This document shows positions 1,084 through 18,435 of a stretch of DNA of 64,000 nt, in pieces; positions within the stretch are counted from its first letter, which is position 1; each line of letters opens with the position of its first letter. The DNA comes from Pseudotamlana agarivorans (lineage in GTDB: Bacteria > Bacteroidota > Bacteroidia > Flavobacteriales > Flavobacteriaceae), in contig NZ_LXEI01000007.1 of the NCBI RefSeq assembly GCF_001642835.1, positions 1 to 64,000 of the forward strand. The letters run 5' to 3'. The notes below the pieces were generated by a model. It was not told the DNA's origin and ran no database searches. It saw nothing but the letters and a program-made list of their open reading frames with translations. Made by a program: the position numbers and the translations under genes.

Positions 1084-2202
1084 TTATTCTTTAACGAATT
1101 TTATGGTTTTTGCTTTGTTGTCACTTTTAATTGTGATTAAATATAAACCATTGTTTAAATGGCTTAAATCAATTCTGTTATCAAATACTTGACCGCCATT
1201 TAGAGTTAATACTTGTTGTCCTAAGCTGTTTACGATTTCAACTTGATCGATTACTGTATTAGCATTAATGTTAATAACATCGGTTACAGGGTTAGGGTAA
1301 ACACTTATAGCATTAATATCGTGTTCTTCAGTCGATAAACTAGGATCTGTTTCTGTAGAAAATGCCCAAACCGTAGCATTAGCACCCGAATTACCAGCAC
1401 CATTACGAGCCACAACTGCCCAGTTATAGGTTGAATTGTAATTTAAAGTAATTGCTACAGTGGTTTCTGCAAGGCTACCTACATAGGCTAAGTCTCCACC
1501 ATTTTCACTAAAATAGATATCGTAACTTGCTGGGGCACCACCTGTTGTAGCTGGTTCCCAAGATAGAATAACAGAGTCGCCGTTATTTTCATCTAAATCA
1601 ACATTCGTGCTGTTATGAGCAGGTGCAGGGTTTATAGGTGCATGTGGTGCTGTTAAATTTTTATCAATTAAATCCACATTATCAATAGCTAAAGCATCAC
1701 CAACAGCTTGAGTTTGCTCCCATACGAATGCGATATATATGGTTTTGCCTTCATAAGCTGTTAAGTCCACGGCATGTTGCGAAAATCTACCATTGGCACC
1801 ATTGTTAACTTCAAGTTCGGTTTGCGTGTCTACTGTTGTAAAAGCAGCGTGATCGTATTGCGTGTTGGCATCGACGTGCTCCGCTACACGAATCGTAAGT
1901 ACCGATTTATTGTCGGCTGCAAGAATATCAGTTTGGTCAAAAACTAATTTTGAATTTGTCGCAGTAATAGGAGCAGTTGGTGTTACTAACCAATCTTGGG
2001 TTGGTGCATCAGAAGGCGATACAACCATGTAGCCACCTTCAGCATAATGTTCCCATTTGCTTTGTTCGCTAGTTACAGTGCCTTTGTAACTAACCCATCC
2101 TGCAGGCGGATTTGTAAAATCTTGTAAATATTGTGCGTTAGCCGCAAATGAAAAGGCTATACATAAAGTTAAGAGTAAGGTAGTTTTTTTCATGTTCTTC
2201 AA
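1084..2202 (-). CDS. T9SS type A-sorted secreted protein with choice-of-anchor and FN3-like domains
   Basis: A 372-residue exported protein. Residues 1-23 form a signal peptide ending in AANA. Residues 27-180 resemble a choice-of-anchor / cleaved-adhesin beta-sandwich (QDFTNPPAGW at the start, AIDNVDLID at the end), as found in Bacteroidota adhesins and peptidases. Residues 190-285 look like one fibronectin type III domain. Residues 300-372 are a T9SS type A sorting domain (VYPNPVTD, then NGLYLITI and KTIKFVKE). I see no catalytic motif, so a binding or adhesin role is inferred. The gene is divergent from the related 1005-residue protein, and both have the same composite promoter. Confidence 0.85.
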   Translation of the reverse strand: MKNMKKTTLLLTLCIAFSFAANAQYLQDFTNPPAGWVSYKGTVTSEQSKWEHYAEGGYMVVSPSDAPTQDWLVTPTAPITATNSKLVFDQTDILAADNKSVLTIRVAEHVDANTQYDHAAFTTVDTQTELEVNNGANGRFSQHAVDLTAYEGKTIYIAFVWEQTQAVGDALAIDNVDLIDKNLTAPHAPINPAPAHNSTNVDLDENNGDSVILSWEPATTGGAPASYDIYFSENGGDLAYVGSLAETTVAITLNYNSTYNWAVVARNGAGNSGANATVWAFSTETDPSLSTEEHDINAISVYPNPVTDVININANTVIDQVEIVNSLGQQVLTLNGGQVFDNRIDLSHLNNGLYLITIKSDNKAKTIKFVKE

Positions 2203-2259: not shown

Positions 2260-2321
2260 GTTAAAAATATTAGTATAATTACATTATATAAAGGCAATGT
2301 CTTGTGGTTTTACCGAAATTT
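2260..2321 (-). promoter_or_regulatory. Composite promoter, copy A (box + 36 bp + -7-like element)
   Basis: Read on the minus strand, AAATTTCGGTAAA (2321 to 2309) is followed after exactly 36 bp by TAATATTTTTAAC (2272 to 2260). The start codon is at 2202. TTTTT-n3-TTTC lies just before the box. The box, the 36-bp gap and the TAATATnTTTA element recur at 2589-2650 and 8870-8931. No TTG is conserved at the -33 position. The assignment as a promoter is inference from this conservation. Confidence 0.65.
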
Positions 2322-2588
2322 GAAATGTAAAAATCAAAGAGTTGAAGAAATAGACAATTTGGCTCAGGCCTTTTATTTATTGCAGTTGTCGTAAATCCAA
2401 ATAAGAAAACGTTAAAATTTTTGATAGAATTTAGAGAGTCATTCTAAAGTTGTTTTTTTTCTAGTATTTAGATTGAAACATTTAATTTTTTATATCATTA
2501 TTAGCTTTTCTTTAAAATATCATTAAATTTTTAACTTAATTTTGTAAACAGTTGAAAGCTAATTGTTTATGCTTTATTTTTGGCTTTT

Positions 2589-2650
2589 AAATTTCGGTAA
2601 ATAGCAAATCCCTTCTCTTTTTATCTTCATTGTACGGTAATATATTTAGG
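2589..2650 (+). promoter_or_regulatory. Composite promoter, copy B (box + 36 bp + -7-like element)
   Basis: AAATTTCGGTAAA (2589-2601) is followed after exactly 36 bp by TAATATATTTAGG (2638-2650). TTTTT-n3-TTTT precedes the box, as in copy A. The coding start is at 2724. The box is identical to copy A in all 13 positions and lies in the opposite orientation across the divergent intergenic region. The rest of 2203-2723 shows no ORF worth calling. Confidence 0.65.
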
Positions 2651-2723: not shown

Positions 2724-5700
2724 ATGAAAAGAATTACATTTTTTATGATGATGCTTTTAAGCGTCACGGTGTTTGCTCAAATCGAAATAGTAGAAAATTT
2801 CGACAGTACAGCAAACAATCAAGTACCAACAGGTTGGACAGTAACAGGAGCTACTGGAGCAACTTCTACTTTTGCATGTGGTGCTACAGGAAGTACTTTA
2901 TCTACTTTATTTTCAACTGAAGGGACTTCAGAATCAATTTTAACAACAGATTATGCGAATATTTCAAATGGGACAGATTTAACTGTTAGTTTTTCATATA
3001 AGATGTATCAAGCCTCCTTTTATAGAACTTATTCAGCACCAGCAGCAGGGTGGGGTTCGTTAATTTTAGAATATTCTATAGATAGTGGTGCTACTTGGAC
3101 AACTATTACAACTATTGATGACTCTAATTATTCGTATGTAGATCCAGCAACATGTACAGACTCTGCAGATTTTTTGATTACTGGAATTCCATCTGGAAGT
3201 AATTTTCAAGTACGCTTTACTGCAACAGCGTCAGTAATTACTAGTAATTTTTTAAGAATGGATATTGATAATCTAGCTTTTACTCAATTAGCAACGGAAA
3301 TACCAAATTGTGATGCTACGTTAATATCTCCAGTTAATGGTTCAACAGATGCCGATTTAGATGCTTTGTTAACATGGAATAGAGCTACGGGATTACCTAC
3401 AGGCTATAACCTTACTATAGGAACAACGAGTGGAGCTAGCGATATTTTAGATACAACGACTACGGATACATTTTACTCTTTAGCAAGTTTAAATTTAGCA
3501 TACAGCACCGAGTACTTTATTAATATTGTACCAACTAATGGTATTGGTAACGCAACGGGATGTGTTGAAGAAAGCTTTACAACACGTGCAGAGCCACTTG
3601 ATGGTTCTACCTGTTCTAAGCCTATTGTGATTTCTAATTTTCCATATTTAGGTCAAGGCGATACAGAAAATTTTGAAAATAATATAGGTGCTAGTCCTTG
3701 TAATACGGGATACATGAGAGGAAATGATGTGTTTTACGAAATTTCACCAGCTACCGATATGTCTATAAATATTGGTTTAACAGATGTAGATGACAATGGG
3801 GCTGGAATTCATGTTGTTGAAGGTTGTATTGATGCTGCTACAGAATGTGTTGCCTATGTAGGTGCAAGTGCTTTTGATGCTGAAAGACAACTGAATGAGG
3901 TTGTATTAAAAGGAGGAAAAACATACTATATTGTTTTAAGTAGCTCAAGTGCTTCAAGAACTTATGCTTACAAATTATTTATTGACCAAAACAGTTGTAT
4001 TAGTCCAACGATTGGTTCTTTAACACCAGTAGCCGATTGTGCTAACGGTCAGTTTTATGTAGATGTTGATGTGTCTTACTTAGGCGATGCCTCTTCTTTA
4101 ACGTTAAGTGATGATGTTGCCTCTACGGCAGATATTACCAATATTTCATCTACTGGAGTCGTTACTGTTGGTCCTTACGCGAGTGGAACCACAGTTAACT
4201 TTACATTAATTAGTAATGATGATAGTGGTTGTTCGTATACCGACTCCACTTTTTTTTACTGTCCACCATCAAATGACGAGTGTGCTAATGCGATGCCTAT
4301 AACAGTTAATACCGATCAATCTTGTACAAGCTTTGTGAGCGCTAGTAATGCCGGTGCAACGGCTGCTGCAAATGAGGAAGGAGCTTGTTCTACATCTGGA
4401 AACAGTGTTTGGTTTAGTTTTGTGGCAACAAACGAAATTCAAATTTTAGAGTATTTAAACGTGGTTTCTGCCCCTGGATATGACCAAGGAGGAGAGTTGC
4501 AAGCTACCGAATTATTTGAAGGAAGTTGTGGTTCACTTACAAGTTTAATGTGTTCGACTGGTAGTTATGTTACATTAACAGGCTTAACTGTTGGTAACAC
4601 CTACTATATTAAGAACAAAACGAACCTTAGTGGTAACTATGCTCAAAATTATGACATTTGTATTAAAGAGCCTTTCGCAGCACCAGCAAATGATGAATGC
4701 TCGAATGCTGTAGCGCTTAGCTTGTCTACTAACGATTTATGTGATAATAAAGTAGCAGGTACTACAATAGGAGCTACAAAGTCTGCCGATGCTTTGGATT
4801 GTGGAGGCGGTTCAACTGTTTACAATGATGTTTGGTATAGTTTTACACCAGCAACAAAAGGTGTTTATGAGTTTTCTTATAACGTTTTAAACGGGTCTAC
4901 TAGTGATAGTTATGTGGTGTATAGTGGTACTTGTGGAGCATTTACTCAAAAAAGTACGGCTTGTAACCAAGATTTTAATCAAACTCACGCGATGAGAGCA
5001 GGTGTCACCTATTATATTGTTGTAAGATCAGCAAGTTCTGGTGAAGGCATAGATTTCGAATTATGTGTTTTCCAATTACCAGATGATGCCGTTTCAAATG
5101 ATGATTGTACAACAGCAACAACATTAGTAGAGTCTAGTGATGCTAATGGAAACAATAAAATTGTTGGCAATATGGATAATGCTTATCCGTCACAAGAAGC
5201 AGCTTGTTCAACTAATTATAAGCATATTTGGTATGCGTTTACACCAACTTATACAGGCGATTACCATGTTGATTTTACAAAAACTAGCGGATCAACAACT
5301 TATTATACGATTTACAATACGGGTGATTGTGCTGCAGTTTCAGAGGACTATGTAACTGGAATTTCTTCCTGTTCTAACACCGTTGATAAAACCATAACTG
5401 TTGAAGCTGGAAAAACTTACTTAGTATCACTATTTTGTGGAGCCACTAGTGCTTCGGAGTTTGAATTATTTATCTATCCAGACGCAACATTAAGTACTGA
5501 TGCTATTGAGTTTGAGAACTTCAAATACTTCCCTAACCCTGTGGTTAACACATTAACGGTTCAGGCTAAAAATAGTATTTCTAATATTAGTATCATCAAT
5601 ATCGTAGGACAAGAGGTAAAGCGTTTTGCTCCTAATACAATCAAATCAACTGTAGATATGAATGACTTAAACAATGGTATTTACTTCGTTAAAGTATCTA

Positions 5701-5741
5701 TTGGTACTGCAGTAAAAACTTTTAAAGTTATTAAAGAATAG
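2724..5741 (+). CDS. Large T9SS type A-sorted surface protein with repeated Cys-containing modules
   Basis: A 1005-residue exported protein with signal peptide 1-18 (ending VFAQ). About 20-195 is a choice-of-anchor-like beta-sandwich, and 195-290 is FN3-like. A run of related ~130-residue modules follows (about 295-425, 515-650, 655-780, 785-920). Three of them open with NDECxNA or NDDCTTA, contain WFSF/WYSFTP/WYAFTP and end in TYYIxxxS-like strands. An Ig-like segment lies at 425-515. Residues 935-1005 form a type A T9SS sorting domain (YFPNPVVN, NGIYFVKV, KTFKVIKE). No enzyme motif is visible. It is probably an adhesin or binding protein on the cell surface. It shares its composite promoter with two other genes here and ends in a strong terminator. 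Confidence 0.85.
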   Translation: MKRITFFMMMLLSVTVFAQIEIVENFDSTANNQVPTGWTVTGATGATSTFACGATGSTLSTLFSTEGTSESILTTDYANISNGTDLTVSFSYKMYQASFYRTYSAPAAGWGSLILEYSIDSGATWTTITTIDDSNYSYVDPATCTDSADFLITGIPSGSNFQVRFTATASVITSNFLRMDIDNLAFTQLATEIPNCDATLISPVNGSTDADLDALLTWNRATGLPTGYNLTIGTTSGASDILDTTTTDTFYSLASLNLAYSTEYFINIVPTNGIGNATGCVEESFTTRAEPLDGSTCSKPIVISNFPYLGQGDTENFENNIGASPCNTGYMRGNDVFYEISPATDMSINIGLTDVDDNGAGIHVVEGCIDAATECVAYVGASAFDAERQLNEVVLKGGKTYYIVLSSSSASRTYAYKLFIDQNSCISPTIGSLTPVADCANGQFYVDVDVSYLGDASSLTLSDDVASTADITNISSTGVVTVGPYASGTTVNFTLISNDDSGCSYTDSTFFYCPPSNDECANAMPITVNTDQSCTSFVSASNAGATAAANEEGACSTSGNSVWFSFVATNEIQILEYLNVVSAPGYDQGGELQATELFEGSCGSLTSLMCSTGSYVTLTGLTVGNTYYIKNKTNLSGNYAQNYDICIKEPFAAPANDECSNAVALSLSTNDLCDNKVAGTTIGATKSADALDCGGGSTVYNDVWYSFTPATKGVYEFSYNVLNGSTSDSYVVYSGTCGAFTQKSTACNQDFNQTHAMRAGVTYYIVVRSASSGEGIDFELCVFQLPDDAVSNDDCTTATTLVESSDANGNNKIVGNMDNAYPSQEAACSTNYKHIWYAFTPTYTGDYHVDFTKTSGSTTYYTIYNTGDCAAVSEDYVTGISSCSNTVDKTITVEAGKTYLVSLFCGATSASEFELFIYPDATLSTDAIEFENFKYFPNPVVNTLTVQAKNSISNISIINIVGQEVKRFAPNTIKSTVDMNDLNNGIYFVKVSIGTAVKTFKVIKE

Positions 5742-5793
5742 GTGAGTAAATACTTGCTTTAAATTGAATTTGTATAAATTTGATTTAGTCACG

Positions 5794-5822
5794 AAAGCAT
5801 CGCGAAAGCGATGCTTTTTTGT
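5794..5822 (+). terminator. Intrinsic terminator
   Basis: AAAGCATCGC (5794-5803), GAAA tetraloop, GCGATGCTTT (5808-5817), then a short T run. It ends the 2724 transcript, so the regulator gene that follows needs its own promoter. Confidence 0.9.
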
Positions 5823-5983
5823 TTTATGCATTTCCCGTGTTAATTTTTTTGCAATTCTATAATAAAGACATCTCAATTTTAAAAGAACTGTTAATCCAAT
5901 TGATATACCCTTACAGTCTTGTCGATTTTATTATATTTGTTATCTTAATATTTCAATAGAGGCGCATATTCAGTGTAAAAACA

Positions 5984-7645
5984 TTGTTAAATTATGATAA
6001 ATCATTGATAATTGTTAGGTCAGAACCCCATAATCTAATTGCTATTTTGATAGGAATAAAAGCTTCGTTCTCAACTCTCGATAAGTGCATGTCTTGCGCT
6101 ACTTTGCTTTTGTGTCTACTTGGTTCTACAGCGAGTTTCGGACAAAATCATCAGCTATTAGAAAAAGCTGAAGAGCTTATTTATTCTAACCCTGATGAGG
6201 CGATTAAAATTTCCGAACACATCGTTAAGAGTGCTGAAGACGAACAAACTCGTGCTCATATTAATTTTATTCTAAGTAAGAGTTATTTGGTAAAGGGAGA
6301 TTTTAACAATGCTGCAATTCCTATTTTTAGTAATACTGAAGAATTACCTAAGGTTAGCCCAATAGCTCAATTTAGAAACTATTTGGTTAGAACCGAGCTG
6401 TTTAGAGAATTGTATTTAGATAAACAAGCTAAAAATTACTTATCTAAAGCTCAGGAGGTTGTTTCAAATATGAAAACCGAAAGTACGGTTAAAGACTCTC
6501 TTCAAAGCTTAATTATTCTTGAAGATATTCAAATGAAAATTGATAGGCATGAAAACTTAAATGCCTTACAAATCATTGATGAAACGAACGAGAAGTTTAA
6601 AGCATATTTTGACAGTCATAGCAATGAAAAGTTAAAAATCACCTTAGCAAAGGAAATGGTTTATAAGGATTTGTCTTTGCATGATTCTGCCTTTACCTAC
6701 ATCAATAAAACCAATCTTTTATTTGAAAATAGTCAACAAAATAACTTATATGAAAAAGCGATTTTTTATAGCGAGTTAGGTAATTTGTATCTTCAAAAAA
6801 ATGAATTTGAAAAAAGTGAAGAAATCTTATTTATGGCCTTAAAATGTGCCGAAGTGATTGATAATCCGTCATTATTGATGCAAATTAATCGCGATTTAGC
6901 CATAAATTATTTGGCAACCAGTCAAAAAAGTAAATACCTTGTTTATAACGATAAGTTCTTAGTATTAAATAATAAAGTGGAATTAATGGATCAAAAATCT
7001 ATTAATACCGTTTATAATTTGGTTACGGAAGAGCATAATAAGGTGGTTTTAAAAGAGGAGAAAACCTATCAGAATTATAGAAATATAGTCATTGCTATAG
7101 CTTTTCTAGTTTTATTAGTAGGAGCTTTTGTGTTGATAAAGAGTGAATTAAGAAAAAAACGACTTCATGAAATTATAAAATATCTTGAAATAAGTAGAGC
7201 TTATTTTAGCAAGATAAAACCAACAAAACGAGCAAGCAAGAATAAAATAATGATCCCTGAAGAAACAGAACGAGGGATACTTATTAAGCTTAAAAAGTTC
7301 GAAAACTCTAGAAAGTATTTAAATAGAGATATGTCGCTAGCTGTTTTAGCAGGACAGTTTGAAACGAATACTAAATACCTGTCTGAAATTATTAATAAGC
7401 ATTACAACGATAACTTTAATACATTCATTAACAAGCTTCGTATTAACTATATCATCAATAAGCTTAAGAAAGACAATAACTATATCAACTATAAAATTAG
7501 TTTTTTAGCCGAAGAAAGTGGTTACTCATCACACAGTAGCTTTGCCACGGTATTTAAATCCATTGTTGGGATGTCTCCAGCAACATTTATCAATTTGATA
7601 AAAGAAGAGCGTGAAGCATTAAAATCAAGTACAGAAGAATCATGA
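5984..7645 (+). CDS. TPR / transmembrane / AraC-type HTH transcriptional regulator
   Basis: About 550 residues. After an N-terminal hydrophobic export signal ending ASFGQ come TPR-like helical repeats (about 55-345), a single membrane helix (about 365-387), a short linker and an AraC-family double HTH domain (about 440-545, with the typical YSSHSSFATVFKSIVGMSPATF pattern split over the second HTH). The sensor part would be periplasmic and the DNA-binding part cytoplasmic. The start is uncertain. The frame opens with TTG at 5984; TTG at 6047 gives a better signal peptide with two lysines; the only ATG before the hydrophobic stretch is at 6089. A -7-like TATATTTG lies at 5932-5939. The gene overlaps the next one by 4 bp (ATGA). 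It lies among surface-adhesin genes, so it probably controls them. Confidence 0.85.
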   Translation: MLNYDKSLIIVRSEPHNLIAILIGIKASFSTLDKCMSCATLLLCLLGSTASFGQNHQLLEKAEELIYSNPDEAIKISEHIVKSAEDEQTRAHINFILSKSYLVKGDFNNAAIPIFSNTEELPKVSPIAQFRNYLVRTELFRELYLDKQAKNYLSKAQEVVSNMKTESTVKDSLQSLIILEDIQMKIDRHENLNALQIIDETNEKFKAYFDSHSNEKLKITLAKEMVYKDLSLHDSAFTYINKTNLLFENSQQNNLYEKAIFYSELGNLYLQKNEFEKSEEILFMALKCAEVIDNPSLLMQINRDLAINYLATSQKSKYLVYNDKFLVLNNKVELMDQKSINTVYNLVTEEHNKVVLKEEKTYQNYRNIVIAIAFLVLLVGAFVLIKSELRKKRLHEIIKYLEISRAYFSKIKPTKRASKNKIMIPEETERGILIKLKKFENSRKYLNRDMSLAVLAGQFETNTKYLSEIINKHYNDNFNTFINKLRINYIINKLKKDNNYINYKISFLAEESGYSSHSSFATVFKSIVGMSPATFINLIKEEREALKSSTEES

Positions 7646-8802
7646 AAATAGCACTTAAATCTATATTTCTATGCATGGCACTTGTTTTTCAATTAAGTGC
7701 TTATGCGACGAGTAGCTTGGTTCAAACCCAAGAAGTAGATAGTTTATTAGAGGAAAGCCGTAGGCAAGTTTATAAAACACCTAATGAATCTATAAAATTA
7801 GGGTTGTCTATTTATCAAGATGAAAACTACGCTCAAGAAGTAAGAGTTAAGGCGCTTTTATTAGTGTCTTTTGGGTACACATCGAAGCGTGATTATCAAA
7901 AAGCTTTGGAGTACATCGTTAAAGTTGACGAGATTTCAGATAAGTTAGACAATGAATTGCTTGAAATAGAAATTCTTTACCGTACTGGAGTGCTTTATCA
8001 ACAGCTTAAAATTTATGATAAATCCATCGAGTTTATGGAAAAAACAGAGCGGTTCTGTTTGTCTTATCCAGATAAAGATGCGGTTCGTTTGTTTCTAGCT
8101 AATAGTTATGTGGTTAAAGCCTTTATTTATAAAGACAATTTAAATTGCGATATAGCTTTAGATTTTTTTAATAAGGGGATTTTAGAGTATCAAAAAATAA
8201 ATAGCCGAAAAAGTAATGGAAATTTAAGTATTATCTACTATAATATTGGAAACTGTTACTCTATGTTAGGAGAATACGGTAATGCTAAAAATAGTTTTGC
8301 AAGGTCTATTTCCTTGGCAAAAAGAGAGAATGCAGATAGTTTAATATCCTTTGCAGAGAAAGGTTTAGCCGAAGTTTATACACTAGAAGGTAACTATAAA
8401 AAAGCCGTAAATTTACTAGAAGAAGCCTTAGAGCGCTCTAAAGGTGTAGGCGATTTGGTATTAAATTTAGGGATTTACAAAGGCCTTTTTGAAAACCACT
8501 TAGCATTGAATGAACCAGAAAAATTTCAAGAATTTTACAATTTATATTTAAAGACTCAGGCTCAGATAAAAACCTCTGAACGTAACTCTATAGGTGATTC
8601 TATTAACGAGAGTTACAAGCTTCAAAACACTGAAGTAGTAAATATCAAAGAGCAATTTAATTCTCTTCTTAAATGGTCTGTTTTATTGGTAGTAATCTTT
8701 GTTTTAGGGGTACTATTTCTTGAGATTAAAAATAAAAAAACCATCCAAAACCTTACAAAAAAGGTGGATTCTCTTCAAGGTGGTAGTAAAATCAAAAAGT
8801 AA
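7642..8802 (+). CDS. Membrane-anchored TPR protein, HTH-less paralogue of the preceding regulator
   Basis: A 386-residue protein with signal peptide (1-22), TPR-like helices over about 30-325, one membrane helix (about 350-370) and a short charged tail ending in lysines. Its N-terminal region resembles that of the gene before it (LLEESRRQVYKTPNESIKL against LLEKAEELIYSNPDEAIKI), but it stops soon after the membrane helix and has no AraC domain. The ATG overlaps the TGA of the regulator (ATGA), which suggests translational coupling and matched amounts. A partner, co-sensor or antagonist of the regulator is the simplest inference. Its ligand is unknown. Confidence 0.8.
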   Translation: MKIALKSIFLCMALVFQLSAYATSSLVQTQEVDSLLEESRRQVYKTPNESIKLGLSIYQDENYAQEVRVKALLLVSFGYTSKRDYQKALEYIVKVDEISDKLDNELLEIEILYRTGVLYQQLKIYDKSIEFMEKTERFCLSYPDKDAVRLFLANSYVVKAFIYKDNLNCDIALDFFNKGILEYQKINSRKSNGNLSIIYYNIGNCYSMLGEYGNAKNSFARSISLAKRENADSLISFAEKGLAEVYTLEGNYKKAVNLLEEALERSKGVGDLVLNLGIYKGLFENHLALNEPEKFQEFYNLYLKTQAQIKTSERNSIGDSINESYKLQNTEVVNIKEQFNSLLKWSVLLVVIFVLGVLFLEIKNKKTIQNLTKKVDSLQGGSKIKK

Positions 8803-8869: not shown

Positions 8870-8931
8870 AAATTTCAGTAAAAGGCAAAGACACAAGGTT
8901 TATGTTAAGAAGGTATTATAATATCTTTAAT
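8870..8931 (+). promoter_or_regulatory. Composite promoter, copy C (box + 36 bp + -7-like element)
   Basis: AAATTTCAGTAAA (8870-8882) is followed after exactly 36 bp by TAATATCTTTAAT (8919-8931). The box differs from copies A and B at one position. The presumed ATG of the giant adhesin is at 8962, so the 5' leader would be about 25 nt. This position argues against the TTG at 8845 as start, since it would put the promoter inside the gene. Confidence 0.65.
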
Positions 8932-8961: not shown

Positions 8962-11900
8962 ATGAAAAACAAGTTGCAGATTGCTCTGGTAAAACCCGAT
9001 CCTTTTTCTGTTAAAGGATTGATTGAATTCGGTTTTAGAAATTCAATTTTTAGTCACTGGATTTTTATTCTAGTACTAACTTTAGTTTTATCAGCTTCAG
9101 GAAAAAGTTACGCACAAGTATCAGAATCATTTAACAGCGGTATACCCAGTAGTTGGTCTATTGTTAGCAATAATGTAGGGACTTCTAATTGGGAAACTAC
9201 CACCGATGGGTTTTTAAACACAAATGGTGTTTACGTAAGACCAAGTGCCGATAATATAGGCGATCAAAATACTGCAGAATATTTTTTGGTGACACCGCAA
9301 TTTACGGTTCCAGAAAAGGGTGAAATTCACTTTTATACCAAGCAAAGTAGTGAAATAGATCATGGTGCAACCTATGAAGTAAGAATTTCTACAGCGGCGC
9401 AACCAGATATTACTGCATTTGGTGTTACACTGCAGTCTTACACAGAATCCAATCTTAATAATGTATCTCAAACAGCTTACGAGAAAAAGGTGATTAAATT
9501 TCCAAGTTCTGTTCCTGCTGGTTTAAATGTTTATATCGCTTTTGTTGCTACAAATACGCAAAATGGAGATAATCCTACAGGAGATTCTTGGTTTATTGAT
9601 GATGTTGAAATATTAGAAGGTTGTTTGGGTGAAATATCTGATGTCGAAGTCGACAATATTATGACGACTACTGCCAATTTAAGTTGGACACATCCTTCAG
9701 CTACTAATTTTGAATTACAAATTTTACCAAAAGGTGGGGTTCCAGCAACAAGTGGTTTTCCTGTTTCAGGAACGAGTTATAGCTTAATAAACCTTGATGA
9801 AGAAACAGAATACGTTTTTTATATTAGTCCTGTTTGTGATAATGGCATTAAAGGTGAATGGGCGGGACCATATAGTTTTGAAACGCTTAAATTAGGATTA
9901 ACATGTGTTGAACCTATAGTTTTAGAAGATATTGGAACGAATCCTTACGAGTTAGTTGAAAATTTACAAAACTACGTGCACCCTAATCCTGCAGAAGTGA
10001 GTTACACTACAGTAGGAACTAACTGTGTTCCAGGTGGCTCGACTTCAACAACCAATTATTTAAATGGTGATAAAATATTTCATACCTATACACCAACCGA
10101 AGATGGTTTACTTTCAATTAGCCTAGAGACTGGTACCGAAGGTGGTGGAGGTGATGACAATTGTTATAATAGCAGAATATCCCTTTTTGTTTACGAAGAT
10201 TGTAGTGGTGTAGGAACAGATTGTCTTGCTGGTTTTACTATCAATAACGCTTTTTCACCTAAATCAATAGAAAACCTATTTGTAGAACAAGGTAAAACCT
10301 ACGTTATCGTTGTATCGTCTGAGCTTAGTTCTGGAGCAGGGATTTGTTTTAAACTTAACGTTTCAGGTTTAACATGTGCACCTCCAGGAAACTTTGACTA
10401 TAGTGACTTAACTGAAAATAGCGTTAAGTTTTCATGGGGTAATGTAGGTGGTTTTTCAGATTCATGGGAATACCAAGTGGTAGCACGTGATGCAGGTACA
10501 CCAACTGCAGGAGGAACGCCAACAAGTACAAATACCGATGTTGTTATAAACTCAGGTTTAACGCCAGGTACAGATTACGATTTATATGTAAGATCGGTTT
10601 GTGGTGGTTTGCCAGGAGCATGGAGTAAACCCTATGCTTTTACAACGCAGTGTACTGCTTTTGATACCCCTTATTTTACCGATTTCAATGGCGCAAATGT
10701 TACTCCAGAACCTTGTTGGACAAGCCTTGATATCAATAAAGATGGAAATACTTGGGGTTATTTAGGAGCAGCGGAGACTTATGCTACTATTGTAACTGAA
10801 CTTAATAGAGTTAATGGTATCAGTAATGATATGTTAGTGTCTCCTCAAATTAATTTTGACGCTTCTCAAAAAAGAATACGTTATAAGCACAGAGCAACAC
10901 AAGGTGCTTCTGTGTACTCGATCAGATTATCTACAACAGGTATTGGACCAAATAATTTCACAACCGAAATTTTACCTGTAACAAGAATTACAAATACAGC
11001 TTTTCAAGAAGTTATTGTAGATATACCAGAAGGGATTACTGGAAAGGTAAATATTGCATGGTATGTAGAACCTAGCGCTAATGAAGATGCTCTTAGGTTA
11101 TCGATTGATGATGTTTATATTGAAGACAAGCCTTCTTGTCCTAAACCACTTAATCCTTCGAGTTTAAATGTAAAAACTGATTCAGCGTGGTTAACATGGA
11201 CTAAAGGTGATGAAGAAACACAATGGCAAGTGGCTATTCAAGATGCGGGAACAGGTATTCCTACAGGAGATGGTGTTATTGTAGATAGCAATTTCCCTTA
11301 TGCGGCTACAGGGTTAGAGCCTGGAACGAGATACGAATACTACGTAAGAGCACATTGTGCCGATGACGATCAGAGTGTGTGGGTAGGCCCTGCTACTTTT
11401 ACAACTTTGTGTACGTCTTACGATACACCATTTTATGAAAGTTTTAATGAAGTTGATCCTGATACACAGAAATTTTGTTGGGATACCTCAGATGACAGCT
11501 GGTCTGTAACCGATACCAGAGCTGAAACATCATCAAGATCTACAGACGCTTATTTAATTTCTCCAGCCATTAATATCGATGGGGTACAAGAGTTAAAATT
11601 TAAGTATAGAGCAGAAGTAGGGTTCTACTTAGGCGTTGTTATACCACCACGTTATGGTTTGGAGGTGTTAATGTCTACAACAACAAATAACCCTACAAGT
11701 TTTTCTGTGATTTCGCAGGCCGAAGTTTTTACACATTCTAATTATATCGAAAAATCGATAATTATTGAAGCTAACGGTCCGGTGTACATCGCCTTTAGAG
11801 TGCCTTCTTTTTCTGGAGGATCCTCTACTTTACATATTGATGATGTTAGCATAGGCGATCCACCACCTTGTCCGGTACCAGGGAATCTTTCTTTAGATAC

Positions 11901-14900
11901 TGTAACTTCTAATAGTGTAGATTTTTCTTGGACGGCAGGTTATCAAGAGACCTCATGGCAGGTGGCTGTTCAATTTGCAGGGGTTGGGGTGCCAAATCAC
12001 GAAGGTGTCACATCTACCGAAACAACATTTTCTGCTACAGATTTAAATCCTGATACAGATTATGAAGTTTACGTAAAATCTAATTGTGGAGATGATAACA
12101 GCGAATGGATAGGTCCATTATACTTCTCAACCACATGTACAGCATTTCCATCACCATTTGTAGAAACCTTTAATACAGATTCTACAACTGAGGGATGTTG
12201 GACGGTTATAGATGATAATTACGACCTAGATACTTGGGAACTTGATAGTGCAACTTTTCCTTATGAAGGCGATCAAGCAGCGGCCATGTTTACTGGTCAT
12301 AATGGTAGAAATGAAGATTGGTTAATATCGCCAACCATTACGCTTACCGAAAATCAACAATTAAGATATTATTATAGAGTTAATGATAGTTTCTTTACAG
12401 AAGATTTAGAAGTGTTATTATCTACCAATGGTGTTGGTTTAGATCAATTTACCCATGTGTTATATGATTCTGATGATGATCCAGTAATCATTAATAATGT
12501 AGAGTATAAAGTAAAAATAATTAGCCTAGCGGGTTATGTTGGTGATGTAAATATAGCTTTCCACGTGCCATTTTTCGCATCAACGGGAGCTTATAGAGGT
12601 CAAACTTTGGTGATTGATAATTTCAATATTGAAGATATTCCAGATTGCCCAGAAGTTACAAATGTTATTGCTAGTAATTTATCTGATACCCAATTAGATC
12701 TAAGCTGGGATGATAATGGTGAAACCTCTTGGGAAATTTCAGTACAACCATCAGGAACAGAAGCTCCTGTTGGAAGTGCAAATCCAGATTATTTATACGA
12801 CGCAACGTCTAATCCTTTTACTGTTACAGGATTAACAGCATCTTCTAAATATGATGTTTATGTAAGAAGTACTTGTGATGCCGATGGTCCTTGGACAGGG
12901 CCTCTTGAAGTGACTACTTTATGTAGTTTCGAGAACTTATGTCAGTATACCATTTTATTGACTAGTGATACGGATATTTCGTCAGAGTTAGTGTTAACAC
13001 AAAACAATCAAAGTTACCAGTCTTTACCTTTTAATGGTAATGTAGAAGAAAGTTTTCTAGTGAATTTATGCTCTGGAGTTCAATACTCTTTATATTTTGA
13101 TACTGTAGGTTGGAATGACGAGCAATATGCGAATTACCAATTTGAAATTTTAGACCCAGATGGAAACTCTGTATATAAAAGTCCAGAAGGCTTGGCATCA
13201 AGAACGACTGTATACACTGGTTATTCTTCATGTGGTGATATTACCTGTCCTGAGCCTAAAGATTTAGCCTCTAATGAACTATCAACGCTTTCTTGGACAG
13301 CAGCCGGTAGTGAAACGCAATGGGAAGTTGCTTTTCAGCCGATAGGCAATGGTACTATACCACAATCGGGGACTATAGTTTCTAATAGTTCATACACACC
13401 TACAGCTTCAGATTTTGTAGACCCTAACATAGCAACCTACGAGTTTTTTGTTCGTGCGGTATGTGGTGACGACGATTTAAGTAATTGGGCGGGACCTTTA
13501 GTTTTTGTTAGAAATGATGATGTATCTACAGCAGTTGATGTTATGGTGAGTGCCGACGAAATTTGTAGCACACCAATGAAAGAGATCTCTTTTAAAAATG
13601 TGACAACGTCTCCAGAAGCCATGAGTTGTGAGGGCGATAATAACGGTGATGTTTGGTTCAGTTTTACGGCTCAATCTAAAATTCATCAAATTGTAGCGCA
13701 TTATACGACAGGAACTTTTAGAGAAACAGGTTATGCTGATTATTCTGAATTAGTGATGACTCTTTATAGAGAGAATTCAGCTGGAGGTTTAGAAGAAATA
13801 ATCTGTAGCTATGATAATACGATTACAGCGATGTACGCTTCCGAGTTAGTTGTGGGAGATACTTATAAAGTAAGATTAACAAAAGTACATGCAGAACCAA
13901 CTGAATACCGCTTGAGTTTATGCATTACTACACCAAACGATTTGTGTGATGTTAAGATTGTAAACGGTGGTTTTGAACACCCAGGAATCGGACGCTTAAG
14001 TGGAGTTAGTTCAATCCTTTCGGTGAATTCAATTCCTGGTTGGAGACAAAATTTAGATACAACCAACTCAGCATTTGTTTGGGAATCATTAAATGCACCT
14101 GGTTTTTCACCTTATGAAGGGGGGCAACTTATCCAGTTGCGATCAGATCAGGGTACAACGATCGACCAAAACGATCCGAATATTAAAGGGTTGTATAGGG
14201 ATTTTGATACTTCAGAAATAACCTTAATGACATATAGTTTTGCGCATTATGGTCGTTTTGATGGTAATAAAATTCAAATGTATGCTGGAGCTCCTGGCGG
14301 ACCTTATACTTTAGTTACCGAAAATTTTGCAGAACAGGCTTGGAAAGTTATCTCAGGCGAATATGCCGTGCCAACAGGACAACCTGTTACGCGCTTTATT
14401 TTTAGAGCTAATGGAACAGACAATATTGGAAATTTATTAGATGCTATAGAATTTGGTTCTAATAATGAAATTATTACCGCGCCATTTGATGTCGATTGTA
14501 CAAATCCAATGGCAACATTAGAAGCTCGTGGTACAGGTACTTGGATACAAAGTGATACCAATCCAAGTCCAGTAACATTTGATGATGAAAACAACAGTAC
14601 AGTAAATATTACTAACTTCTTAGCTCCTGGGGTGTATTCATTTACATGGAAAACACGCTATTGTGAATACAGTATTGAATTAAACTATAATGGTATTGGG
14701 GACATTCCATCTGTAGAAACACCAATTGAATATTGTATAAATGATACCCCAGTGGCTTTAGAAGCAATGCCGTTAACGGGTTACGAGATTGTTTGGTTCA
14801 CTCAAGCAACAGGAGGTACTGCTAGTACAATGGCACCTACACCAAATACTACTGTAGCAGGAAACACATCATACTATGTGGCTTATAGAGATATCACTAA

Positions 14901-15471
14901 AGGTTGTGATGGTCCTCGTGCCGAGATTGTAGTCATTGTAAATGATTTTATAGAATTTGAAATAGCAGGAGAATGTCAAGAGGGTGATTATATTCTTGAA
15001 GCATTACCTATTAATAGTGATTTTGATGGATCTCAAGCTACTTACACTTGGAAAGATGCCGATGGAAATGTTGTTGGAGAGAATTCTGAAATATTTAATA
15101 TAACAGAGTACACCAGCCAAAATACCACTAGTTCTTTATTGTTTTCAGTAGAAGTGGCATACGGTGGTTGTTCCTCAGAAGTTACTCATATCGCAGAAAG
15201 ATCTAGCTGTATCGATATTCCTAGAGGTATTTCTCCTGATGGAAATGGTAAAAATGATGACCTAGATTTAACAGGGTACGGAGTTACCGAGCTATACATC
15301 TTTAATAGAAACGGCACAGAGGTTTATAAGTTTAAAGGTACTTATACCAACCAATGGCATGGTCAAACTAATAAAGGTGAAAATCTTCCAGATGGCACAT
15401 ATTTCTATAGTGTTGTAAACGGAGATGGTAGTAAAACTACAGGTTGGATTTTTATTAATAGAATTCAATAA
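8962..15471 (+). CDS. Giant multi-domain T9SS type B-sorted adhesin-like protein
   Basis: 2169 residues from the ATG at 8962. The frame is open back to a TTG at 8845, but the promoter at 8870-8931 makes the ATG more likely. Residues 1-52 are an unusually long signal peptide with a ~30-residue N-region, a hydrophobic core IFILVLTLVL and a cleavage site near SYAQ. At least four choice-of-anchor-like sandwiches alternate with about five FN3-like domains (FN3 units starting CPKPLN, CPVPGN, CPEVTN, CPEPKD, with TSWQVAVQ/TQWQVAIQ strands). Near the C-terminus come a module like those of the 2724 protein, an Ig-like region and a type B (gliding-motility-associated) sorting domain beginning PRGISPDGNGKNDDLDL. 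It is likely a surface adhesin exported by T9SS. It is followed by its PorP/SprF-type partner. Confidence 0.85.
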   Translation: MKNKLQIALVKPDPFSVKGLIEFGFRNSIFSHWIFILVLTLVLSASGKSYAQVSESFNSGIPSSWSIVSNNVGTSNWETTTDGFLNTNGVYVRPSADNIGDQNTAEYFLVTPQFTVPEKGEIHFYTKQSSEIDHGATYEVRISTAAQPDITAFGVTLQSYTESNLNNVSQTAYEKKVIKFPSSVPAGLNVYIAFVATNTQNGDNPTGDSWFIDDVEILEGCLGEISDVEVDNIMTTTANLSWTHPSATNFELQILPKGGVPATSGFPVSGTSYSLINLDEETEYVFYISPVCDNGIKGEWAGPYSFETLKLGLTCVEPIVLEDIGTNPYELVENLQNYVHPNPAEVSYTTVGTNCVPGGSTSTTNYLNGDKIFHTYTPTEDGLLSISLETGTEGGGGDDNCYNSRISLFVYEDCSGVGTDCLAGFTINNAFSPKSIENLFVEQGKTYVIVVSSELSSGAGICFKLNVSGLTCAPPGNFDYSDLTENSVKFSWGNVGGFSDSWEYQVVARDAGTPTAGGTPTSTNTDVVINSGLTPGTDYDLYVRSVCGGLPGAWSKPYAFTTQCTAFDTPYFTDFNGANVTPEPCWTSLDINKDGNTWGYLGAAETYATIVTELNRVNGISNDMLVSPQINFDASQKRIRYKHRATQGASVYSIRLSTTGIGPNNFTTEILPVTRITNTAFQEVIVDIPEGITGKVNIAWYVEPSANEDALRLSIDDVYIEDKPSCPKPLNPSSLNVKTDSAWLTWTKGDEETQWQVAIQDAGTGIPTGDGVIVDSNFPYAATGLEPGTRYEYYVRAHCADDDQSVWVGPATFTTLCTSYDTPFYESFNEVDPDTQKFCWDTSDDSWSVTDTRAETSSRSTDAYLISPAINIDGVQELKFKYRAEVGFYLGVVIPPRYGLEVLMSTTTNNPTSFSVISQAEVFTHSNYIEKSIIIEANGPVYIAFRVPSFSGGSSTLHIDDVSIGDPPPCPVPGNLSLDTVTSNSVDFSWTAGYQETSWQVAVQFAGVGVPNHEGVTSTETTFSATDLNPDTDYEVYVKSNCGDDNSEWIGPLYFSTTCTAFPSPFVETFNTDSTTEGCWTVIDDNYDLDTWELDSATFPYEGDQAAAMFTGHNGRNEDWLISPTITLTENQQLRYYYRVNDSFFTEDLEVLLSTNGVGLDQFTHVLYDSDDDPVIINNVEYKVKIISLAGYVGDVNIAFHVPFFASTGAYRGQTLVIDNFNIEDIPDCPEVTNVIASNLSDTQLDLSWDDNGETSWEISVQPSGTEAPVGSANPDYLYDATSNPFTVTGLTASSKYDVYVRSTCDADGPWTGPLEVTTLCSFENLCQYTILLTSDTDISSELVLTQNNQSYQSLPFNGNVEESFLVNLCSGVQYSLYFDTVGWNDEQYANYQFEILDPDGNSVYKSPEGLASRTTVYTGYSSCGDITCPEPKDLASNELSTLSWTAAGSETQWEVAFQPIGNGTIPQSGTIVSNSSYTPTASDFVDPNIATYEFFVRAVCGDDDLSNWAGPLVFVRNDDVSTAVDVMVSADEICSTPMKEISFKNVTTSPEAMSCEGDNNGDVWFSFTAQSKIHQIVAHYTTGTFRETGYADYSELVMTLYRENSAGGLEEIICSYDNTITAMYASELVVGDTYKVRLTKVHAEPTEYRLSLCITTPNDLCDVKIVNGGFEHPGIGRLSGVSSILSVNSIPGWRQNLDTTNSAFVWESLNAPGFSPYEGGQLIQLRSDQGTTIDQNDPNIKGLYRDFDTSEITLMTYSFAHYGRFDGNKIQMYAGAPGGPYTLVTENFAEQAWKVISGEYAVPTGQPVTRFIFRANGTDNIGNLLDAIEFGSNNEIITAPFDVDCTNPMATLEARGTGTWIQSDTNPSPVTFDDENNSTVNITNFLAPGVYSFTWKTRYCEYSIELNYNGIGDIPSVETPIEYCINDTPVALEAMPLTGYEIVWFTQATGGTASTMAPTPNTTVAGNTSYYVAYRDITKGCDGPRAEIVVIVNDFIEFEIAGECQEGDYILEALPINSDFDGSQATYTWKDADGNVVGENSEIFNITEYTSQNTTSSLLFSVEVAYGGCSSEVTHIAERSSCIDIPRGISPDGNGKNDDLDLTGYGVTELYIFNRNGTEVYKFKGTYTNQWHGQTNKGENLPDGTYFYSVVNGDGSKTTGWIFINRIQ

Positions 15472-15505: not shown

Positions 15506-16441
15506 ATGAAAAAAATATATCTCACACTAACATTTGCACTCTTAGTTTTACTAGGTGTTAATGCACAACAAGACCCTCAGTATACACAGTATATGTATAA
15601 TATGAACGTGATTAACCCTGCCTACGCAGGTTCTAGAGGCGACTTAGCCATTGGGTTATTACACAGATCGCAATGGGTAGGTATCGAAGGGTCACCAAAA
15701 ACATCAACTTTTTCAATTCACAGTCCTACAGGTAAAAATGTAGGACTAGGGTTGTCGGTTGTTTCAGATCAAATTGGTCCTATTGAAGAAAACAATGTTT
15801 ACGCTGATTTCTCATACACTTTAAACCTTGGTGGTGCACACCGTTTAGCACTGGGTTTAAAGGGGGGCGCTAGTTTTCAAAACATCGGACTGTTTAATGA
15901 TATTGGAAACGGCTACCTAGTTGATGCTAACGATGAAGCCTTTAGTGAAAACACAAACAATACCTATTTAAATATTGGTACCGGTATTTTTTACTATACC
16001 GATAATTATTATGTGTCGTTTTCAATTCCCAACATGTTAAAAAATACGTATCTGGATGTTAGTAATAACGGTGATACCTATAAGTTTGGTTCCGATGTAC
16101 TGCATTACTTTTTATCGGCAGGATATGTTTTCAACCTTTCTGAAAGCACCAAATTTAAACCGTCCTTTATGTTGAAATCGGCTTTTAACGCACCAACATC
16201 ATTGGATTTGTCGGCTAACTTCTTGTTTTTCGATCGTTTCGAAGCAGGAGCAACGTATAGGCTAGACGATTCCGTTGGCGCTATGGTTAATTTTGAAATA
16301 TTATCAGGCCTACGCGTAGGCTATGCATACGACTATACAACGTCAGAGCTTAATGTTGAATCTTCTGGTTCTCATGAAATCATGCTGTTGTTCGATCTTA
16401 ATTTCCCTAAAAAAGTATCTGTGTCACCTAGATTTTTCTAA
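15506..16441 (+). CDS. PorP/SprF family T9SS-associated outer-membrane protein
   Basis: A 311-residue protein with a 20-residue signal peptide (ending NAQ), then the family signature QDPQYTQYMYNMNVINPAYAGS and alternating beta strands up to a terminal aromatic residue (PRFF). In Flavobacterium johnsoniae, SprF is needed to deliver the type B-sorted adhesin SprB to the surface, and PorP binds a PorE-type OmpA protein in Porphyromonas. Its place 34 bp after a giant type B cargo gene and 18 bp before an OmpA-family gene fits a dedicated export/anchoring partner. It is probably one operon with 8962 through 21924. Confidence 0.93.
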   Translation: MKKIYLTLTFALLVLLGVNAQQDPQYTQYMYNMNVINPAYAGSRGDLAIGLLHRSQWVGIEGSPKTSTFSIHSPTGKNVGLGLSVVSDQIGPIEENNVYADFSYTLNLGGAHRLALGLKGGASFQNIGLFNDIGNGYLVDANDEAFSENTNNTYLNIGTGIFYYTDNYYVSFSIPNMLKNTYLDVSNNGDTYKFGSDVLHYFLSAGYVFNLSESTKFKPSFMLKSAFNAPTSLDLSANFLFFDRFEAGATYRLDDSVGAMVNFEILSGLRVGYAYDYTTSELNVESSGSHEIMLLFDLNFPKKVSVSPRFF

Positions 16442-16459
16442 CTAAAAACCACCTTAAAA

Positions 16460-18328
16460 ATGAAACATATATATAGTCTTTTATGCTTGGTTCTTTTTGT
16501 AACAGCCAGTTATGGGCAAAACAGTCAAAGGGAAAAAGCTAATAAATACTTCGAAACTTACCAGTATGTAGATGCTATTGAAGTCTACTTAAAAATGATT
16601 GATAAAAACCAAGCCAATAGCAACGATTACAAACAGCTAGGCGATAGTTATTATAACCTGTTTAACCTTGATGAAGCCTCAAAATATTATGAAATGGCTT
16701 CGAAATCTAAACAAGATTCAGAATTTTATTACCGTTATGCACAGGTTTTAAAATCGCAAGGTAAATATCAGGATGCCATCGAACAAATGGATACGTTTGC
16801 TACAATGACACCTTCAGATCAACGCGCTATAGAGCATAGAAAAAATCCTGACTATATTTCTAGTTTAGATGATAAATCCATTTTATTCCATGTTAAGGAG
16901 GCTCCTATAAATGATGTTGAAGAGAGCGATTTTAGCCCCATAATGTCTAACGACAATATTTTATACTTTGTAAGTACCCGTAATCAGGGTAGTAAAAAGG
17001 ATAAATCGACCAACGAATCTTATTTAGATATCTATAAATCGGTACGTGATGAAAATGGTGAATTTTCAACTCCAGAGCCTGTAAAGAGCTTAAATAGCAA
17101 TTATCACGACGGACCCATAACCATAAGTGCTGATGGAAAAACCATGATTTTTGCAAGTAATGGTTACCGTGAAGGATCTTTCAAAAAAATGAAAGACAAA
17201 GGGATAAAATTAGCGCAACAAGGTTTGTATAAAGCCTCTTTAGTTGATGGTAATTGGACCAATATTAAAGCATTACCTATAAATAGTGTGGAGTATTCTG
17301 TAAGTCACCCATGTTTAAGTCATGACGGTAAAACGCTTTATTTTACTTCGAATATGCCAAACGGTTTTGGAGACACAGACATTTGGAAAGTTAGTGTTGA
17401 TAAGGACACTTATGGAGAACCAGTAAACCTAGGTAAGCATGTCAATACGCCAGGAAAAGAAGGCTATCCATTTATAAGCAGCGACAACATTCTTTATTTC
17501 GCTTCAAGCGGAAAACAAGGTTTTGGTGGTTTTGATATTTTTAAAGTGGATTTAAATAAAAATGAAGAAGCTATAAACCTGGGAAAGGAGATAAATACTA
17601 GGAGAGACGATTTTGCTTTTAGTATTAATATGGAGCAGGAAATCGGGTACTTTTCATCTAACAGAACTGGAGTAGATCAAATTTATATGGCCTTTCCAAT
17701 TTGTAAGTTTCAAACGAAGCTTATTGTAAAAGACGCCGAAACAAATACTGCTATTCCTAATGCTACAGTTGCTGTAGTAGACGTAAATGGTAATGTGGTT
17801 TCTAATGCCATGACCTCAAAAGATGGAACAATGAGCTATGAGTCTAAGTGTGAATTATCTTTTGTGTTTAATGTTGCTAAAGAAGGTTATAAGTCAAACT
17901 CTATAACCGTAAGTGAGACCAATGGAAATGATGTTTCTAAAACAGTATTATTGTCTCCAATTAATGAAATGATTACTGAAACAGAGGTGAAACTGAATAA
18001 CATTTACTTCGAGTTTAACAAAAGTAACATTACACAATCTGGTGCATCAGAGCTTGATAAGCTGGTAAAAATCATGAATGATCATCCAGAGATGAAAATT
18101 CTAGTGCGTTCTCATACCGATACAAAAGGTAATTCGAAATATAACTTGAAATTATCAGAAAGAAGAGCACAATCTACTGTTCAATATGTCATTTCTAAAG
18201 GTATTAATAAGGATAGATTGTCGGCTGAAGGTGTTGGTAGTACAGAACCAAAAATTGATTGTAAATCAAATTGTACTAGCGAAGAAGACGCGCAAAATAG
18301 ACGTTCGGAGTTTTTAATTATAAAATAA
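16460..18328 (+). CDS. OmpA-family protein with TPR, PD40-like and carboxypeptidase-regulatory-like domains
   Basis: A 622-residue protein with a signal peptide (1-19). TPR-like helices cover about 22-120. PD40/WD40-like beta-propeller strands follow over about 155-410 (LYFVSTRN, MIFASNG, LYFTSNMPNGFGDTDIW, LYFASSGKQGFGGFDIF). A carboxypeptidase-regulatory-like domain lies near 415-500, and an OmpA/MotB peptidoglycan-binding domain at 510-622 (NIYFEFNKSNI, HTDTKG, NRRSEFLI). This is the PorE-like architecture found beside PorP/SprF genes, which ties the outer-membrane T9SS parts to peptidoglycan. It presumably works with the PorP/SprF protein encoded just upstream. Confidence 0.9.
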   Translation: MKHIYSLLCLVLFVTASYGQNSQREKANKYFETYQYVDAIEVYLKMIDKNQANSNDYKQLGDSYYNLFNLDEASKYYEMASKSKQDSEFYYRYAQVLKSQGKYQDAIEQMDTFATMTPSDQRAIEHRKNPDYISSLDDKSILFHVKEAPINDVEESDFSPIMSNDNILYFVSTRNQGSKKDKSTNESYLDIYKSVRDENGEFSTPEPVKSLNSNYHDGPITISADGKTMIFASNGYREGSFKKMKDKGIKLAQQGLYKASLVDGNWTNIKALPINSVEYSVSHPCLSHDGKTLYFTSNMPNGFGDTDIWKVSVDKDTYGEPVNLGKHVNTPGKEGYPFISSDNILYFASSGKQGFGGFDIFKVDLNKNEEAINLGKEINTRRDDFAFSINMEQEIGYFSSNRTGVDQIYMAFPICKFQTKLIVKDAETNTAIPNATVAVVDVNGNVVSNAMTSKDGTMSYESKCELSFVFNVAKEGYKSNSITVSETNGNDVSKTVLLSPINEMITETEVKLNNIYFEFNKSNITQSGASELDKLVKIMNDHPEMKILVRSHTDTKGNSKYNLKLSERRAQSTVQYVISKGINKDRLSAEGVGSTEPKIDCKSNCTSEEDAQNRRSEFLIIK

Positions 18329-18435
18329 ATTGGCAGTTAAGTGGCTAAAGTGAAATAGAAAAATAGATTAAAAAAATGATAGTCAAACAGCATGCATAGA
18401 TGCGTTTGGCTATTGTTTGTTATAAGGGGGAAAAT

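Follow-up and report, generated by a model that had tools for sequence, protein, structure and literature searches.

To our knowledge, little has been described of what turns on single surface proteins of the type IX secretion system (T9SS) in the Flavobacteriaceae. The question is raised in concrete form by the stretch of DNA analyzed here, positions 1 to 64,000 of contig NZ_LXEI01000007.1 from Pseudotamlana agarivorans (the window). Within 6.7 kb, it carries three perfect copies of a 13-bp box paired with a -7-like element, each ahead of a T9SS cargo gene (Table 1). We consider it likely that the box is a private operator of this cassette, from which its membrane-bound TPR-AraC-type regulator would activate transcription at about -64 to -52. 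Our best explanation also takes this arrangement of operator and regulator to be undescribed. Neither a TPR-AraC regulator of T9SS genes nor such a box was found in literature titles and the opening parts of abstracts, a search outside which many subscription papers lie.

Table 1. Promoter elements and genes of the cassette, in order along the window
Feature	Position	Strand	Remarks
Cargo gene 1 (C1)	1084..2193	-	369 aa; choice-of-anchor J, fn3, T9SS type A tail (family search)
-7-like element TATTTTTA, promoter 1	2262..2269	-	39 bp past box; inside TAATATTTTTA (2272-2262)
Box AAATTTCGGTAAA, promoter 1 (cargo gene 1)	2309..2321	-	exact copy
Box AAATTTCGGTAAA, promoter 2 (cargo gene 2)	2589..2601	+	exact copy
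-7-like element TATATTTA, promoter 2	2641..2648	+	39 bp past box
Cargo gene 2 (C2)	2724..5741	+	1005 aa; galactose-binding-like domains, T9SS type A tail (family search)
Intrinsic-terminator-like hairpin	5793..5818	+	between C2 and regulator gene
Probable regulator	6089..7645	+	TPR-type helical domain, AraC-type HTH_18; signal peptide and one transmembrane helix by eye
Partner	7642..8802	+	TPR; signal peptide and C-terminal transmembrane helix by eye; 4-bp overlap with regulator
Box AAATTTCAGTAAA, promoter 3 (cargo gene 3)	8870..8882	+	exact copy
-7-like element TATCTTTA, promoter 3	8922..8929	+	39 bp past box
Cargo gene 3 (C3)	8962..15471	+	2169 aa, adhesin-like; fn3, Cleaved_Adhesin / choice-of-anchor J, CHU_C (T9SS type B) tail
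PorP/SprF-family gene	15506..16441	+	34-bp gap after C3
PD40/OmpA-family gene	16460..18328	+	close behind PorP/SprF gene
CHU_C (T9SS) protein gene	18400..21924	+	close behind PD40/OmpA gene

Two of the three promoters had been described in an earlier note on this DNA. Its report of the box in both outward orientations is exact for promoters 1 and 2, as is the 36-bp spacing that it gave between each box and the string TAATATnTTTA (TAATATTTTTA at promoter 1 and TAATATATTTA, 2638-2648, at promoter 2). A third perfect copy, AAATTTCAGTAAA-n36-TAATATCTTTA, spans 8870-8929 on the forward strand. The T-rich tract said to precede the boxes is conserved across the 30 promoters compared below, as TTTT at positions -12 to -9 and CTTTY at -5 to -1 of the box; its gap in the third window copy is 2-3 bases. 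Start codons were placed 122 and 106 bp away. The first distance, on the forward strand, is correct, and the second, on the reverse strand, runs to a TTG at 2202; the ATG at 2193 is the likelier start and makes it 115 bp. The view that the spacer lacks conservation had to be abandoned, in that relatives keep AAAG at 18-21, CT at 29-30, T32, T36 and A37.

The full 60-bp pattern, AAATTTCRGTAAA-n36-TAATATnTTTA, was searched for throughout the genome (3,828,493 bases, or 3.83 Mb, in 50 contigs), as the note had proposed. There are three perfect matches, all before T9SS cargo genes, and none for the reversed control; one further match, with 3 mismatches, lies outside the window. An order-0 model gives an expectation of about 2e-5 perfect matches per genome. 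Two of the three copies served to define the motif in the first place, which leaves the third, together with the relatives, as the only independent evidence. The box alone is not enriched, with 6 exact copies in the genome versus 5 for the reversed control, and TAATATnTTTA at n36 is absent from the three exact boxes outside the window. The special feature is the combination of box and -7 element, not the box alone. In this genome the regulon is cassette-local and consists of three promoters. A genome-wide regulon was considered and rejected, as three of the six exact boxes lie outside the cassette and lack TAATATnTTTA at n36.

In the rest of the genus (five genomes), the full pattern has no match with under 3 mismatches and the regulator no full-length relative; two of these genomes show matches to its C-terminal part only, of about 85-120 residues. 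One identical 3-mismatch match of the full pattern recurs in five of the six genus genomes, this one included, and is taken as unrelated. Across 397 genomes of the family, the exact 17-letter box TTTYAAATTTCRGTAAA has 36 matches in 26 genomes. Cassette promoters account for twelve of these, spread over 7 genomes that have a close regulator relative. Every one of the 12 shows TAnnTT at a distance of 39 bp from the box (n39), versus 1 (L147) of the 23 readable sites among the 24 other matches. With one mismatch allowed, the 17-letter box is matched in 278 of the 397 genomes, which is too noisy for any conclusion.

Individual genomes nevertheless differ in how far one-mismatch boxes exceed the reversed control. 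The counts are 5 versus 0 in G059, 7 versus 0 in G068, 8 versus 0 in G078 and 7 versus 0 in G076, and there is an excess also in G278, G283, G288 and G304. Regulator relatives are present in G059, G068, G078, G278, G283 and G288, and none is listed at E 1e-20 for G076 and G304. Regulons in other genomes may be wider.

The cassette itself is conserved together with the promoter pattern. Full-length regulator relatives with at least 44% identity occur in 13 of the 397 family genomes, this genome included. Thirteen loci belong to named genomes, which comprise Bizionia, Lacinutrix, Tamlana, Winogradskyella, Mangrovimonas, one metagenome-assembled genome and three Flavobacterium; the three Flavobacterium regulators are 36-39% identical to that of the window. 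Up to 20 kb around 34 regulator matches was compared. In all 18 cassettes of what we call group A, window included, tblastn places regulator, partner and C3 together, with regulator and partner side by side. C2 is matched in 12 of the 18, and for C1, the retrieved cassettes from other genomes match the C-terminal part alone. In one cassette (L071), both cargo genes are downstream of the regulator-partner pair.

These 18 cassettes yield 30 promoters (1 C1, 12 C2 and 17 C3), which were registered by taking the best box match within 260 bp upstream of the start codon and then the position of TAnnTT. Same-contig records (L053, L055, L056, L060 and L076) were left out of this count, as was the C3 gene of L071, before which no box was found. 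The count retains near relatives (L072/L073, L059/L074/L075 and L054/L070), which leaves the 30 sites not fully independent of one another. Automatic registration puts TAnnTT exactly 39 bp from the box in 27 of the 30, and no alternative offset between 20 and 59 is shared by more than 3. The count at n39 becomes 29 when L071 C2 and L058 C3 are re-registered to weaker boxes, a step taken by eye with the expectation known; the last promoter, L062 C3, has TAnnTT at n40. When the 63 letters after the box were shuffled in 2000 trials, at most 6 of 30 sites fell at one offset (30-50), against the 29 observed. The distance from box to ATG is variable, ranging from 89 to 184 bp in the 28 sites besides the re-registered two.

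Over the 30 sites the motif extends to TTTT, CTTTY, AAATTTCRGTAAA, AAAG, CT at 29-30 and TAnnTT at 53-58. The extended form of the box reads CTTTYAAATTTCRGTAAAnnnCAAAG, with the T-tract upstream. A profile built from the 30 sites has no further match scoring at least 15 in 405 kb that cover the window and 17 group A loci; in 175 kb from 48 other loci that score is never reached. With one locus left out at a time, the sites themselves score from 14.7 to 80.2.

The core promoter shares TAnnTT with the sigma-A promoters of Bacteroidetes (-33 TTTG / -7 TAnnTTTG; PMC2483708, PMC6847099), and it differs from them in that 29 of the 30 promoters lack a -33 TTG and none has a full TAnnTTTG at n39. TAATATnTTTA had been put forward as the conserved -7 element; the conserved part proves to be TAnnTT, followed at the eighth base by A in 19 promoters, G in 8 and C in 3. 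The octamer ends in TA in 17 of 30 promoters, which thus carry TAnnTTTA, and the sole TG-ending site is the n40 site of L062 C3.

The suggestion that the box replaces the -33 element agrees with the finding of a TTG at 26-39 past the box start in only 1 of the 30 promoters. As evidence this is weak alone, because even ordinary F. johnsoniae promoters show a -33 motif far less clearly than a -7 motif (PMC6847099). The proposal of an upstream activator site gains from the fixed spacing in relatives. The -7 element has been mapped to -12 to -5 in F. psychrophilum (PMC9723704), and with it at that position the box would lie at about -64 to -52.

The candidate for binding this box is the first gene of the regulator-partner pair. 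Its product matches HTH_18 (E=1e-10, 42.2 bits versus a cut-off of 33.6), and a profile search returns TPR structures as well as AraC-family structures, for example 3gbg over residues 437-498 (E 5.2e-8). The structure model (mean pLDDT 88.1, pTM 0.64) comprises a domain of helical repeats, a helix 96 residues long (280-375), a linker of low model quality and an AraC-type domain. An apparent transmembrane segment falls inside the 280-375 helix; signal peptides and transmembrane segments were read in the sequences by eye rather than by a predictor. The start codon is uncertain, the frame being open from 5984. The family search matched no DNA-binding family in the partner protein. Upstream of the regulator gene, at 5932-5939, there is a full-consensus -7 element, TATATTTG, without a box, and the gene may be transcribed from an ordinary promoter.

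Like AraC-family activators of the AraC and ToxT type, the regulator has an HTH_18 domain, and its putative site is fixed upstream of the core promoter. Unlike them, it would be anchored in the membrane and take its input through TPR, the cassette promoters have a Bacteroidetes-type -7 element, and the perfect sites in this genome are confined to the regulator's own cassette. Co-component regulators of the ToxR/ToxS type carry a ToxR-type DNA-binding domain, and the window regulator has an AraC-type HTH instead. The likeness to VtrA/VtrC and ToxR/ToxS, co-component systems of enteric bacteria, lies in adjacent, overlapping genes for a membrane-tethered DNA-binding protein and a protein with an extracytoplasmic domain (PMC9214523). 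In the window the overlap occupies 7642-7645, and the pair is adjacent in 18 of 18 group A cassettes by tblastn. The sensor of VtrA/VtrC is lipocalin-like (PMC9214523), whereas partner and regulator in the window match TPR and the regulator model is helical. We claim no shared ancestry with either system.

In the mechanism that we propose, the regulator would be anchored in the inner membrane and extend its TPR domain into the periplasm. This domain would sense a signal, with the neighboring TPR-transmembrane protein as a likely partner. The cytoplasmic AraC-type domain could then bind the box at its upstream position and recruit or stabilize RNA polymerase at a core promoter that is presumably weak, having no -33 TTG and a -7 element of the TAnnTTTA type. 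The three flanking T9SS cargo transcripts, including a C3-PorP/SprF-OmpA operon, would be switched on together. Their predicted starts are about 5 bp after TAnnTTTA, near 2257 (-), 2653 (+) and 8934 (+). Computation establishes the sequences, their fixed spacing, the conservation of the box along with the regulator cassette and the joint divergence of box and regulator; from these we infer binding by the regulator, activation, start sites, topology, operon and signal.

The tail of C3 matches CHU_C above its cut-off and TIGR04131 with 31.1 bits, under the cut-off of 35. The PorP/SprF gene is probably co-transcribed with C3, the PD40/OmpA gene probably belongs to the same operon, and the CHU_C gene at 18400..21924 possibly does. 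From 15506 to 21924 the PorP/SprF, PD40/OmpA and CHU_C genes follow one another with short gaps, like an operon of the SprB-SprF type.

Box and regulator diverge together in more distant cassettes. At L078-L083, where regulators are about 30% identical, the cargo promoter is the sole match per locus scoring at least 9 with the 30-site profile, and it is in register with a changed box. In group B (L078-L084) the box is AAAATTCGTGAAW or AAAATTCCCGAAT, with TAnnTTGC at n39 in 7 of 7 promoters, six of which were also found by the profile and one, L084, by eye. Boxes in group C (L085-L089, L092 and L094) resemble AAATTTCGTGAAA, and all 7 of its promoters place TAnnTT at n49, a spacing 10 bp beyond n39, or about one helical turn; these boxes were registered by eye and were not detected by the profile. 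T9SS sorting domains are encoded by the gene following each of the 7 group B and 7 group C promoters. Group D, consisting of three Flavobacterium loci (L063-L065), has the box-like sequence AAATTACYGAATT. The rule fails there, with TAnnTT at offsets 25-64 in 0 of 3, and L064 has a profile score of 11.2 with AATATTTG at n39. At loci L090, L091, L093 and L095-L099 no profile match reaches 9. Widened searches with the group B and C proteins (E 1e-40, three candidates scored per genome) found no additional B or C cassette.

In a tree of the regulators, the groups occupy separate branches (A 100/99, B 90/55, C 100/100 and D 100/99). The group labels derive partly from the promoters, so the agreement of box and tree shows consistency but does not amount to a blind test. 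Two genomes, G083 and G068, each contain one B and one C cassette, with differing boxes.

The -7 elements of the diverged groups invite comparison with other promoter classes. In six of the seven group C promoters the element is TAGGTTTA/G, which has G at -10 and -9. Promoters of F. johnsoniae avoid G at these positions (PMC6847099), and because of these two bases another sigma factor may act at group C promoters. The group B element matches the SM5 motif of F. psychrophilum, TAnnTTGY, which was confirmed by promoter mutagenesis before remFG-sprCDBF (PMC9723704). SM4-6 are described there as most likely under alternative sigma factors, in a passage that mentions no upstream box for SM5. The match holds for TAnnTTGC in 7 of 7 group B promoters, likewise before T9SS cargo genes; the three promoters of the window differ in having TAnnTTTA rather than TAnnTTGY. 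In a full-text literature search, the string TAnnTTGY was found in PMC9723704 alone. The match raises the question of whether SM5 is a sigma-factor signature or the core of activator-dependent promoters.

Two group C loci have a further feature. At L092 (7736-7761) and L087 (7718-7743), the box is directly followed by its own inverted copy to make a 26-bp palindrome, imperfect in L087. The palindromes suggest a putative dimer site centred near -61.5.

Several other explanations of the box were weighed. It might be the site of a regulator encoded elsewhere, two-component or global, with the TPR-AraC pair a mere neighbor. Binding by the cassette regulator is after all a prediction, and no box with at most one mismatch precedes the regulator gene itself. 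We nonetheless think this unlikely. Perfect matches to the full pattern occur in this genome only at the cassette, the five other genus genomes have neither a full-length regulator relative nor a pattern match with under 3 mismatches, and box type shifts with regulator clade, even between the different cassettes of two genomes. It is less probable still that the cassette regulator uses the operator as a repressor or an off/on switch instead of as a pure activator. AraC-type proteins can both repress and activate, and a fixed position fits an activator but also allows a repressor. However, the site lies upstream of the core at a fixed spacing that grows by 10 bp in group C, and 29 of 30 promoters lack a -33 TTG, as expected for activator dependence.

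Invertible surface-antigen promoters exist in Bacteroidetes, and promoters 1 and 2 could be imagined as a DNA-inversion switch, the boxes being reverse complements, that is, exact 13-bp inverted copies flanking 267 bp. We give this very little credence, in view of the third copy and the relatives, which have one box orientation at a fixed distance to the -7 element. The arms would also be short; a repeat scan (minimum 11) lists two other pairs and not the boxes, and no recombinase family was found in the 11 window genes scanned, from 319 to 24061. Hardly more plausible than inversion is a box without function, present by chance or because entire promoter segments share a common ancestor. Where C2 and C3 promoters come from the same genome (11 pairs), identity is 92% in the box, 73% in the -7 octamer and 52-54% in the spacer (14-52), compared to 32% at random. 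From this spacer identity, shared descent of the C2 and C3 promoters is likely, possibly as ancient duplicates. The 16 bases just past the -7 element are nevertheless only 35% identical, near the random level, while box and spacing are kept, and chance is opposed by the shuffling result. Overall, a cassette-private operator that serves its own TPR-AraC-type regulator as an activating site remains the likely reading.

A bolder generalization, to which we lend little confidence, would make these loci a family of T9SS adhesin cassettes in Flavobacteriaceae. Each would have its own membrane-bound TPR-AraC co-component pair and a non-cross-reacting box, with spacings helically phased at 39 or 49 bp, and the periplasmic TPR domains would sense the export state of the cassette's own cargo in a self-contained feedback. 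Apart from this, one cassette type supplies a candidate regulator, operator and core promoter with predictions at the level of single bases. Its natural variants (boxes A, B and C; spacings of 39 or 49) could reveal how an AraC-type activator contacts the unusual RNA polymerase of Bacteroidetes.

Two repeats deserve mention. Genome G349 has five occurrences of the box inside an apparent tandem repeat (L145, 1501-1991) that is seemingly unrelated to promoters. In the window, the predicted leader of cargo gene 2 contains a nine-base inverted repeat, TTGTTAAGC / GCTTAACAA, at 2659-2684, which is part of a longer listed pair.
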